In this document: positions 4,167 to 32,267 of the stretch, in pieces
Layout of the letters: each line of letters opens with the position of its first letter
Position numbering within the stretch: the stretch's first letter is position 1
IMG/VR virus record: IMGVR_UViG_3300032296_001406
Coordinates: 1 to 32,267 of that record
Reading direction: 5' to 3' (one strand)
Source: a virus
DNA: 32,267 nucleotides
Notes under the pieces: generated by a model
The model's input: only the letters and a program-made list of their open reading frames with translations
What the model was told of the DNA's origin: nothing
Database searches by the model: none
Position numbers and translations under genes: made by a program

Positions 4167-4220
4167 CATAGGGGTAGCCGAAAACCTTACAGAGTAGGCA
4201 AACAAAATAAATTTTATTTT

Positions 4221-5030
4221 ATGTTATCAGTTCAAACAGAACCAATGGTGAAAGTCAGTAACCACGTTCAAAATTCTTCTCAAGTAAATCAAGTTTTTGT
4301 AACGAAAAACTTGGGCATGTTTTCTTCAATAGATGGCAATCGAGTGCCTAATCTTATTCACGTTAAGCGTTTAACCGACAGTCTACGTAAGTACGGAATG
4401 AAATGCAATCCAATTTTAGTGAATGAGAAGCTACAAGTTATCGATGGACAGCATAGGTTGTTAGCGGCAAAGGAAGTGCAATCGGAGGTTTATTTTATTA
4501 TCATTCCGGGAAGCAATCTAACCGATGTCCACACACTCAATCTCAATCAAAAGAACTGGTCAAGAAAAGATTTTATGGAAGGTTATGCCAACATGGGTAT
4601 TATCCCATACATAAAGCTTCGTGACTTTGTAAAAAAGAATGACGATTATGGTTTTAATGATTGCGTGTCTTTATGCAGCAATACCAGTTCAGTATCTGCC
4701 AGTAGCAACAAAACAGGAACAAGTGGTGGTAAAGGTCAGTACACATTAGAAGAAGGCACATGGCAAGGTAAAAATTTTACCTTAGCACAGGAATGGGCAA
4801 ATAAGATTCGAATGATCAAGCCATACTATGTTGGCTACAATCGTTCTGCTTTTGTTGGAACTATGATTGTTCTCCTGCAAAATCCCAATTTTGATTTCAA
4901 TGACTTCATGCATAAGCTAAGAATACAACCAACAGCTTTAGTTGACTGCGCTAATCGTGAGCAATACAAAACGCTTATCGAAGACATCTATAATTTTAAG
5001 CGCAGAGATAAAGTAAATCTGCGATTCTAA
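4221..5030 (+). CDS. ParB/Srx-like phage protein
   Basis: A 269-residue protein. Residues about 45-85 carry the ParB N-terminal-like core: a helix (VKRLTDSLRKYGMKCNPIL) then VIDGQHRLLAAK at 73-84, the conserved 'DGxHR' nucleotide-binding motif. After it comes a beta strand (VYFIIIP) and a helical C-terminal region without a clear HTH, so it is a stand-alone ParB-domain protein like those of many phages rather than a plasmid-partition ParB. Such proteins can be CTP-binding DNA clamps or nucleases; which applies here cannot be told. No ParA partner is encoded. A 54-base gap separates it from the previous gene, and a strong promoter begins just after its stop. Confidence 0.75.
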   Translation: MLSVQTEPMVKVSNHVQNSSQVNQVFVTKNLGMFSSIDGNRVPNLIHVKRLTDSLRKYGMKCNPILVNEKLQVIDGQHRLLAAKEVQSEVYFIIIPGSNLTDVHTLNLNQKNWSRKDFMEGYANMGIIPYIKLRDFVKKNDDYGFNDCVSLCSNTSSVSASSNKTGTSGGKGQYTLEEGTWQGKNFTLAQEWANKIRMIKPYYVGYNRSAFVGTMIVLLQNPNFDFNDFMHKLRIQPTALVDCANREQYKTLIEDIYNFKRRDKVNLRF

Positions 5031-9213: not shown

Positions 9214-9315
9214 ATGAAAGCAAATAAAGTAATCAAGTACATCGTATGGGGCGCAATCTTCTTCGCCATTCTTAGTTACTGTCAAGAACTGAATGATTGC
9301 CTAATGAAGTATTAA
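9214..9315 (+). CDS. Tiny single-pass membrane protein
   Basis: 33 residues: MKANKVIKYIVWGAIFFAIL, then SYCQELNDCLMKY. One hydrophobic segment (about 7-22) follows a positively charged start, so it would sit in the inner membrane with its N-terminus inside. It is in the promoter-led cluster with the annealing protein, preceded by an A-rich leader (AAACACAATAAC) like other genes here. The role is unknown. The small size lowers confidence. Confidence 0.5.
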   Translation: MKANKVIKYIVWGAIFFAILSYCQELNDCLMKY

Positions 9316-19986: not shown

Positions 19987-20574
19987 TTACTTTTTTGAAC
20001 GGATGCTTTCCATGAAGTCGCTGAATGATGAACCATTCGATGCAACAACAGGCGCAACGTTTTTCTTAAACTCTTGTGATTTAACAGAAGGAACAGCAGG
20101 TGCTTTCTTAACTGAAGCAAGTTCAGCTTTAACTGTTTCAACTTCATTCTTTGCAGATTCAACGGCTGCGCTTAGTTCAGTCTTTTCAGTTTCAAGTGCA
20201 GCAATGCGCTCCGACAATGAACCGATAACGGCAACAAGGTCTTCGCTGCTCATTTCAGTTGATTGTTCTTCGCGTTCGATTTCGGCAACAAGACCATCTT
20301 CGCCTACGACTACTTTGGTCACACCGTCTTCTAATAGGTATTCGCCAGCAGGTACAGGCACTGGGTTACCTTCAGCATCCTGTGTGTAGATATCCACACC
20401 TACTACCCACTCATCAGCGGTAGAATAGATTTTAGTACCATCATTCAAAGTACCTTCTACAGCAAACTTTACTTCCGCTGCAGCAGCTTCTTCTTCGAAC
20501 TTGATACCAACGCTTGAAGGATCAATGCCGTACTTAGAGAATACGGATTTGATTTGTTCTTTTATGTTTGACAT
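19987..20574 (-). CDS. Head scaffold protein
   Basis: 195 residues, acidic. An N-terminal beta-like part (KFAVEGTLNDGTKIYSTADE, VPVPAGEYLLEDGVTKVVV) is followed by a coiled coil (IGSLSERIAALETEKTELSA, AVESAKNEVETVKAELASVK) and a basic C-terminus ending SFSDFMESIRSKK. A long coiled coil with a basic end, placed immediately before the capsid gene, is the scaffold layout; the C-terminus would bind the capsid protein. The nearby XkdF-like protease would remove it during maturation. Its start abuts the oppositely oriented RHH gene unit. Confidence 0.75.
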   Translation of the reverse strand: MSNIKEQIKSVFSKYGIDPSSVGIKFEEEAAAAEVKFAVEGTLNDGTKIYSTADEWVVGVDIYTQDAEGNPVPVPAGEYLLEDGVTKVVVGEDGLVAEIEREEQSTEMSSEDLVAVIGSLSERIAALETEKTELSAAVESAKNEVETVKAELASVKKAPAVPSVKSQEFKKNVAPVVASNGSSFSDFMESIRSKK

Positions 20575-20610
20575 CGATTTATATTTGGGTATAGTAGCAA
20601 AAACGCGATT

Positions 20611-20640
20611 TTGTTACATGCCAAATCCTTCTTACATTAG
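20611..20640 (+). promoter_or_regulatory. Promoter for the ribbon-helix-helix gene
   Basis: TTG (20611-20613), exactly 19 bases, TACATTAG (20633-20640), one mismatch to TAnnTTTG. It points right, against the surrounding head genes, and its start would lie about 17 bases before the ATG at 20664. A stronger box TATATTTG (20580-20587) lies upstream but without a correctly spaced -33 element. Confidence 0.6.
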
Positions 20641-20663
20641 CCGTATAAATAAATACACCTATT

Positions 20664-20798
20664 ATGAAAAAGCCAGCAGAAACGTTTACGAAGAAGATTT
20701 CAGTGAGATTAACCGATAAGCAATACAAGATGGTTGCTAAAAATGCCAAAGCATCGAAGATGTCAATGGCAGAATACAGCCGCGCATGTATGCTGTAG
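20664..20798 (+). CDS. Ribbon-helix-helix DNA-binding protein
   Basis: 44 residues: MKKPAETFTKKISVRLTDKQ, YKMVAKNAKASKMSMAEYSR, ACML. The strand 'TKKISVRLT' followed by two helices with 'KASKMSMAEYSR' is a typical ribbon-helix-helix (Arc/MetJ/MobC-type) fold, a dimeric DNA binder. It is the only + strand gene in the 20-kb leftward block, with its own promoter and its own terminator, so it is an independent unit between protease and scaffold. It may repress late transcription or act on its own promoter; both are inference. Below the usual gene-length cut-off. Confidence 0.8.
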   Translation: MKKPAETFTKKISVRLTDKQYKMVAKNAKASKMSMAEYSRACML

Positions 20799-20816
20799 TA
20801 GATTAGTTTAGATTGT

Positions 20817-20850
20817 AAAAAAGAAGGGACTCGTTAGTCCCTTTCTTTTT
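20817..20850. terminator. Bidirectional terminator between RHH and protease genes
   Basis: GGGACT-CGTT-AGTCCC (20826-20841) is a perfect 6-bp stem with a 4-base loop, preceded by an A-rich run and followed by a T-rich run. It ends the + strand RHH transcript (stop at 20798) and, read backwards, the minus-strand protease transcript (stop at 20908). Confidence 0.8.
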
Positions 20851-20907
20851 AATGTTAAAACCTAAAACCAATTTTATCACGATAACATGGCGAAGATAAA
20901 CAAAATT

Positions 20908-21498
20908 TTACTTCACCAAACCGCTAATGATATTTTCTAATTCAAGAACTAATTCCGCTTCGTAGTTCTTTACACCACTCATAGCCACTCCGACTTCGTT
21001 AAAGAAACCTTCGATGCTATAACCACGCACCTTGCCTTCCTTAACATCATTCCACACATGATCTTCATCCACCTTTGTTCCTATGAACCATGTGCCATCA
21101 GGTAGTTCAGGCAATCCAAGCTGAAGCGACTTATCTTGCTTACCTTCTTTTATCCATGATTCTACCACTGTTACGCCTGTAACTGGTATTTCGTGCTGTA
21201 AATTGGTAGTGTGTTGCAGGTTCTTCTTAAAGAACTGATGCGCTATTGCGCTAACTGTTGCCTTTTCAAAGTACACATAGTATGGCTCGCCTTTTTCGTC
21301 ATATCGAAGTATTTGCTTATCCGGTATCAATGCAGGACCATACAGCATCCTACGTTCATCATCCACTTTGGCAAGCTGCATCTTGCTTAACGCTATCCAA
21401 TTTTCTTCGATTGCAGGACTATCCACAAGCCCCATTGCGGTTATTCCCAAGCGACCTTCTTCGTCGATTACACACTTAACGATTTTTCTCTTATCCAT
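20908..21498 (-). CDS. Prohead protease, XkdF-like
   Basis: 196 residues. Blocks typical of XkdF-type phage proteases: GITAMGLVDSPAIEENWIAL (18-37), YGPALIPDKQILRYDEKGEP, YYVYFEKATVSAIAHQFFKK, TGVTVVESWIKEGKQDKS, LPDGTWFIGTKVDEDHVW, and VRGYSIEGFF near 158-167. The conserved His of AHQFFKK and the Ser of GYSIEG fit a serine protease active site. It processes the scaffold during capsid maturation. A bidirectional terminator separates it from the RHH and scaffold genes, so scaffold and capsid need their own promoter or read-through. Confidence 0.8.
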   Translation of the reverse strand: MDKRKIVKCVIDEEGRLGITAMGLVDSPAIEENWIALSKMQLAKVDDERRMLYGPALIPDKQILRYDEKGEPYYVYFEKATVSAIAHQFFKKNLQHTTNLQHEIPVTGVTVVESWIKEGKQDKSLQLGLPELPDGTWFIGTKVDEDHVWNDVKEGKVRGYSIEGFFNEVGVAMSGVKNYEAELVLELENIISGLVK

Positions 21499-31710: not shown

Positions 31711-32207
31711 AAAAAAAGCAGCGTATTCAACACATGATCTAAAGTCAATTCGCCAATGGCATCTTCATACTTGCGCTTGTCATTGGTAGCATATGGCTCA
31801 ATATCATAATACTTCCCAAACTTCGCTTTGATAGGTCGGTATAGGATGCACATCATTTTGTGTGCAGCTTCGCCCATGATCACACCATCTTTGTATATGT
31901 CACCGCACACGCTATCTAAGTCCACGTATTCGCCAAACGTCATTGAACTAAGGTCTGGAACAAAGCCCAATTCATACAATCCAATACGCACCTTGCGTTC
32001 AAATTCACCACTGCTTAAGCGAATGGCTGCTTCAAATCGCTCAATGATTTCATCAATCACATGAACCTGTAGCAGGCGAATGCTTTCGGTGCTCTTGCCT
32101 GTAATCACACGCACCTGCTCAATCTTATCAACTGCATTTTGGTAGTCGATATATTGATTCAGCGTGATGCCTTTCGCGTTAGCTGCTATGCTAAAGTTTA
32201 ATTTCAT
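31605..32207 (-). CDS. Tail-assembly chaperone (short form)
   Basis: 200 residues, helical. MKLNFSIAANAKGITLNQYI opens it; GFVPDLSSMTFGEYVDLDSV (about 83-102) and AHKMMCILYRPIKAKFGKYY (about 115-134) are blocks I know from tail-assembly proteins of Bacteroidota phages ('GFIPxLxxxTxGEYxDLDxY...MxxLYRP'). A run of nine T (31709-31717, minus strand) lies at codons 164-167, where -1 slippage joins the extension frame. Tail chaperones made in two lengths by frameshift are a hallmark of long-tailed phages; here the gene is before the fibre, connectors and tape measure. The start is the same ATG as in the left-edge copy at 369. Confidence 0.75.
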   Translation of the reverse strand: MKLNFSIAANAKGITLNQYIDYQNAVDKIEQVRVITGKSTESIRLLQVHVIDEIIERFEAAIRLSSGEFERKVRIGLYELGFVPDLSSMTFGEYVDLDSVCGDIYKDGVIMGEAAHKMMCILYRPIKAKFGKYYDIEPYATNDKRKYEDAIGELTLDHVLNTLLFFSSLEIELYNDSLVFLAKEITEIVKEMKEQQPLTD

Positions 32208-32267
32208 GCTCTGTTGTATTGTAGTTTTTGCTTCCTTTTTGTTACAAGTCCGAATGCACGTTGATAA
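31839..32267. repeat. Terminal repeat, right copy (circle junction)
   Basis: Second copy of the 429-base end repeat; it pairs with 1-429. Nearly all differences fall at synonymous codon positions of the chaperone gene. I find only two amino-acid changes in the shared 123 codons: Asp/Glu near residue 68 and Val/Leu near residue 77. This pattern fits natural strain variation rather than read error. Confidence 0.85.

Follow-up and report, generated by a model that had tools for sequence, protein, structure and literature searches.

In the virus record IMGVR_UViG_3300032296_001406, whose 32,267 nt were analysed as a whole and are referred to here as the window, a gene for a ribbon-helix-helix (RHH) protein of 44 amino acids (MKKPAETFTKKISVRLTDKQYKMVAKNAKASKMSMAEYSRACML) lies on the plus strand at 20664-20798. 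It sits inside a block of minus-strand genes that spans 12139-32207. Its two neighbours belong to this block: a head maturation protease (20908-21498; Peptidase_S78_2, E 6.6e-20), which is the last gene ahead of a terminator, and a scaffold-like gene (19987-20574), which opens the restarted operon. The scaffold-like protein contains a coiled coil and matches the C-terminal half of phrog_24921, a family whose N-terminal half is the protease. The coordinates agree with an earlier note on this DNA, which had placed an RHH gene of the plus strand between protease and scaffold within a minus-strand block. The ends of the window overlap (1-429 versus 31839-32267, with 404 of 429 positions identical), so that the genome is near-complete and either circular or terminally redundant, with a length of about 31.8 kb. 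The Nonlabens phages P12024S and P12024L are the closest cultured relatives, and a distant relative of the head protease was found in a Galbibacter contig; the host is therefore likely a member of the Bacteroidota. The phage belongs to a common and abundant, uncultured freshwater group of genus level. Elsewhere in the genome, the Rfam DUF805b cis-regulatory RNA motif was found in the early region at 4168-4200 on the plus strand (42.8 bits, E 4e-9), just upstream of an open reading frame at 4221. A promoter-RNA-terminator unit at 719-820 was checked for conservation and is not conserved.

Family-model matches and the predicted fold assign the 44-aa protein to the RHH superfamily, as the earlier note had recognized. 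It matches the Pfam family NikA-like above the curated cut-off (E 1.3e-8), and the same family is matched by all 17 diverse relatives that were aligned, while RHH_1 is matched by 2 of the 17. The AlphaFold model (pLDDT 81) contains helices at residues 18-30 and 35-43, both preceded by the segment expected as the intermolecular strand, which forms only in the dimer. When this model was compared with the PDB using Foldseek, the best matches were nearly all RHH proteins (AtaR, KacA, the N-terminus of NikA, Arc, AmrZ and CopG), with E-values that are not significant at a length of 44 aa. A profile search against the PDB gave chance matches only, and tblastn of the protein against phage and plasmid records gave no match. 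The protein is predicted to act as a dimeric, sequence-specific DNA binder through its strand.

Presence or absence of the gene in relatives, a check proposed in the earlier note, was examined in 115 distinct scaffold-upstream regions pooled from several scans. The RHH gene is found in 111 of them at the same position; its product has 43-46 aa in most cases, and its distance from the scaffold start hardly varies (~92 nt). Related proteins thus do exist in other genomes. With a median pairwise dN/dS of ~0.13, purifying selection clearly acts on the protein over its whole length. The four sequences without the gene represent three lineages (L030, L057/L061 and L074). Compared with its sisters L075 and L077, L074 carries a 168-bp deletion reaching from within the RHH promoter spacer to the RHH stop codon. 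No RHH homologue was found in 84 distant loci. In distant relatives protease and scaffold are either fused, as in P12024S, or parted by forward genes; at 22 protease-scaffold junctions that were inspected, the only reverse open reading frame kept encodes 244 aa and is found in L286. Due to its absence from distant relatives and its losses within the group, the cassette is best regarded as a derived and dispensable feature of its phage group. In many relatives an extra forward gene separates the protease from the RHH cassette. It encodes either a subtilase of 683-689 aa (L024:8594-10663; Peptidase_S8, E 5e-32) or a protein of 354 aa that matches no family (L031:2981-4045).

In Flavobacteria, promoters have the form TTTG / TAHHTTTG, in which the -7 box spans -12 to -5 (PMC6847099; PMC9723704). 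A motif of this type precedes the RHH gene on the plus strand at 20610-20640, with the -33 TTTG at 20610-20613 and the -7 box TACATTAG at 20633-20640. The spacing of ~19 nt and the sequence fit the pattern with one mismatch, which lies in the -7 box, and the predicted transcription start is at ~20645. The pair of TTTG and -7 box is kept in 110 of the 111 RHH-bearing genomes, and we assign a probable promoter function from motif pattern and conservation. The correctly spaced promoter that had been ascribed to the gene is retained in substance, while its type is better read as Bacteroidota -33/-7 than as sigma-70. The coordinate 20611, given as a start in the earlier note, falls in the conserved -33 TTTG. 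The best match to an E. coli-type promoter (TTGACA-16-TATAGT, 20568-20595) is probably a coincidence: its TTGACA coincides in part with the scaffold start codons of the opposite strand, and its TATAGT is the late -10 box described below, read as reverse complement.

A short repeat had been expected near 20575-20660 as the binding site of the RHH protein. By inspection we found an inverted repeat, GTATAAATAAATAC, at 20643-20656, which overlies the predicted RHH start. The pattern GTA-N6/8-TAC occurs in 84 of 92 genomes with main-class RHH, and none of the 18 genomes with divergent-class RHH has it, the two classes being clades. The repeat is a candidate RHH operator, to be taken as a lead. In the -33/-7 spacer, ACATG is repeated directly in one clade, but this is not general.

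Downstream of the RHH gene lies a bidirectional intrinsic terminator (20823-20850, stem 20823-20844). It is terminator-like on both strands, as the earlier note had claimed, and it is so in 108 of the 115 relatives. After loss of the RHH gene the terminator is still clear in L030 and L074, and L057/L061 have a weaker hairpin only. A second host-type promoter motif, TTTG...TATCTTCG, is located on the minus strand at 20891-20920, just behind the protease, and would yield an RNA of ~70 nt ending at the bidirectional terminator. Its -7 box (TAWHTTWG) and the leader are kept across relatives with differing upstream genes. In the window, the minus strand at 20817-20920 comprises a leader of 70-95 nt with TTTAGGTTT and the two-way terminator, an arrangement also kept in RHH-less relatives. 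It could represent a small RNA, or else the scaffold operon may have an attenuated leader here. A conserved 5' hairpin was sought in the leader RNA and was not consistent across clades.

A bipartite element, TGTAACAAAA-N11/12-CTACWATA, is found directly before the scaffold-like gene and again before the first late gene, both on the minus strand, and is putatively a phage late promoter. At the scaffold/capsid operon (putative late promoter 2, 20590-20618) it reads TGTAACAAAA-N11-CTACTATA, and at the first late operon (putative late promoter 1, 32217-32246) TGTAACAAAA-N12-CTACAATA; the latter sequence is repeated at 379-408, in the terminal overlap. Within the window the top matches score 18/18 and the next best 14/18. 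Searched as TGYAACAAA-N9..15-YTAYNNTA, the motif has two sites in most near-complete relatives, and the reversed pattern, used as control, gave 0 matches in the relatives. Exceptions are partial records with one site, a few records in which a loose match or one in the terminal repeat is added, and the lineage G009/G024 with none. At late site 1 the element shares bases with the upstream gene's stop codon, so that its sequence is partly constrained there. The GTAT...ATAC repeat is absent from late site 1.

Upstream of the late block, an open frame on the minus strand at 1347-1904 resembles a phage sigma factor with regions 2 and 4. It matches phrog_1740 (E 5.7e-6) and Sigma70_r4_2 (E 2e-5), the Pfam scores being weak and the latter match slightly below the cut-off. 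In sigma factors, region 2 contacts the -10 and region 4 the -35 element. In G009/G024, which form one RHH-less lineage, sigma region 2 is 36% identical to that of the window versus at least 69% elsewhere, while region 4 is 87% identical. In the same lineage TGTAACAAAA is retained at late site 1, the -10 box is changed at both late sites, and the scaffold site has a changed -35-like box as well. This co-change of region 2 and the -10 box in one lineage is suggestive of the sigma-like gene product reading the late promoters. The sigma-like gene has no ATG, GTG or TTG before 1781, and homology begins ~40 codons earlier. Most relatives likewise have none; their likely start codon is ATC or ATA, and a few relatives have TTG. 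Translation from a rare start codon is possible.

When reverse-complemented, the -33 sequence of the RHH promoter, TTTTGTTACA, is identical to the late -35-like TGTAACAAAA. Due to these shared bases, two polymerases should not occupy both promoters together, and the RHH promoter and the scaffold late promoter should be mutually exclusive. The RHH-less L030 and L074 have retained the late element and lost the RHH -7 box; the two promoter functions are therefore separable. We considered whether residue 11 of the RHH protein strictly covaries with the choice of TTACA or TTGCA in the shared box, and rejected this, as main-class genomes with TTGCA break the rule. That the cassette splits the head operon, as had been stated in the earlier note, is borne out, and the second copy of the late promoter directly behind it would restart late transcription.

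We propose that the cassette encodes an RHH protein which is made early, regulates its own gene and in addition tunes the scaffold/capsid promoter, and we give this reading about an even chance. Early in infection, host RNA polymerase would transcribe the RHH gene from the host-type promoter, and the transcript would halt at the bidirectional terminator, so that no antisense RNA runs into the tail genes. The 44-aa protein would dimerise as RHH, bind around its own start site and limit itself, and it would modulate, most likely delay, the scaffold/capsid promoter. Later, the phage sigma factor would drive two late operons: the first from ~32.2 kb, ending past the protease at the same bidirectional terminator, and the second from 20.6 kb, restarting at the scaffold. 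The role as late-gene repressor, already raised in the earlier note, is suggested here by the shared -33/-35-like bases and the inverted repeat at the start site. At the sequence level the proposal is supported by the conserved gene, by the overlapping motifs, by a late motif that has two sites and by the co-change of sigma and -10 in one lineage; from these we infer timing, dimerisation, DNA binding, repression and the pairing of sigma factor and motif. The proposal is weakened by the dispensability of the protein, three lineages having no RHH gene. Further points against it are that the candidate operator was picked out by inspection and follows RHH classes that are clades, that its repeat is missing at late site 1, that RHH residue 11 does not vary strictly with the shared box, and that the sigma co-change comes from one lineage, with weak Pfam sigma scores.

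A similar arrangement is found in the complete genome of P12024S (NC_018271, L414), where four isolated small reverse genes (gp04, gp07, gp40 and gp43) lie in the structural region. Each of them adjoins a copy of a late-type motif, TTTYCGTTAMTATA (3015, 5396, 23945 and 25185), and a further copy at 163 heads the head operon. Two of the five copies are identical to the query, and the other three have 3-4 mismatches in 19 positions; another match with 4 mismatches lies inside a gene at 9295. An exact TATATTTG box accompanies three of the four reverse genes and a terminator two of the four, and gp33 is annotated with sigma-70 region 2. As in the window, the structural region contains small reverse genes that each face a late-type motif head-to-head. 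In contrast to the window, the proteins are not RHH, the late motif differs and only two of the four genes have a terminator. Because the reverse genes of P12024S abut late-type motifs, a reverse gene combined with a restart late promoter seems to be a recurring layout in such phages.

The same layout bears on the alternative that the cassette is a moron proper, with an RHH protein acting elsewhere (on a host gene, in anti-defence or on other phage promoters), a seat in the head operon that is a tolerated slot, and a divergent late promoter that merely restarts the interrupted operon. The reverse genes of P12024S share the layout with non-RHH proteins, so that the layout needs no regulator. 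By anatomy the cassette is moron-like: at motif level it has its own promoter and terminator, and distant relatives have protease and scaffold fused or collinear. The moron-like unit of the earlier note therefore holds as far as anatomy is concerned (own host-type promoter, gene, terminator, clean losses), but it is not a recent stray insertion, since the gene is near-universal in a genus-level group. Cargo acting elsewhere would leave unexplained why the start-site inverted repeat tracks the RHH class and why dispensable cargo is retained almost universally. We regard this as the main alternative, possible but with odds clearly against it. An effect purely in cis, in which the cassette serves as insulator and promoter competitor (by terminator, occlusion by host polymerase and restart promoter) and the protein autoregulates only, would agree with the bases shared by the two promoters, with the conserved two-way terminator and with its retention in the RHH-less L030 and L074. 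However, the purifying selection along the RHH protein points to a function beyond transcription through the locus, which makes this explanation unlikely. It is highly improbable that the gene is what remains of an antitoxin or of an accessory protein for mobilization (NikA/MbpA): its nearest profiles are indeed NikA-like, MbpA, MobA and a RelB-type antitoxin, but NCBIfam scores are far below cut-off, the protein ends after 39 of the 72 positions in the NikA profile, plasmid and phage records hold no similar protein, the 334-nt gap holds no second gene, and fixed length and purifying selection are unlike a remnant. A NikA/MobC-type mobilization protein as such was rejected on profile coverage (39/72), the neighbouring protease and scaffold and the missing plasmid match, and a type II antitoxin because there is no adjacent toxin gene and a single gene lies between promoter and terminator.

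Beyond the early, autoregulated RHH protein proposed here, we speculate, with considerable doubt, that Bacteroidota phages of this kind share a design in which reverse early genes within the late region stand head-to-head with phage-sigma promoters, the two promoters having bases in common, and form mutually exclusive early/late switches that also restart structural blocks and control them separately, and in which the RHH protein times capsid synthesis. A search of open-access literature text gave no account of such a scheme in Bacteroidota phages. In conclusion, our analysis offers a concrete and testable transcription map for an abundant uncultured freshwater phage group, with host early promoters, a phage sigma factor, two late operons and a divergent switch that shares bases. 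The similar layout in the cultured relative P12024S makes bench testing possible.

A precedent for the proposed role is SvtR of the archaeal virus SIRV1, an RHH regulator whose targets are its own gene and a gene for a virion structural protein, the latter being repressed more strongly; it was proposed to prevent premature expression of that structural gene (PMC5569661). Like the protein described here, SvtR is a very small viral RHH protein, but it belongs to an archaeal virus with TBP/TFB promoters and its targets are distant. In the window, by contrast, the structural promoter diverges from the RHH promoter and has bases in common with it, and RHH binding is putative. Arc and CopG are small RHH repressors that act on promoters in their own locus. 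They are comparable as single-domain RHH proteins of ~45-53 aa, of which Foldseek aligns ~33-34 residues; they differ in that there is no detectable sequence family match, that helix 2 is shorter in the window protein and that its locus has no immunity or copy-control genes. The mobilization proteins of the NikA-like/MbpA type provide the best Pfam match, above cut-off, but the window protein covers only the first 39 of 72 positions and is below the NCBIfam cut-offs, and no relaxase is nearby. With phage morons the cassette has in common its own promoter and terminator, its position between genes that are adjacent in relatives and its dispensability. In contrast to these, it is near-universal in its group, lies on the reverse strand and is tied to a second late promoter with which its own promoter has bases in common.
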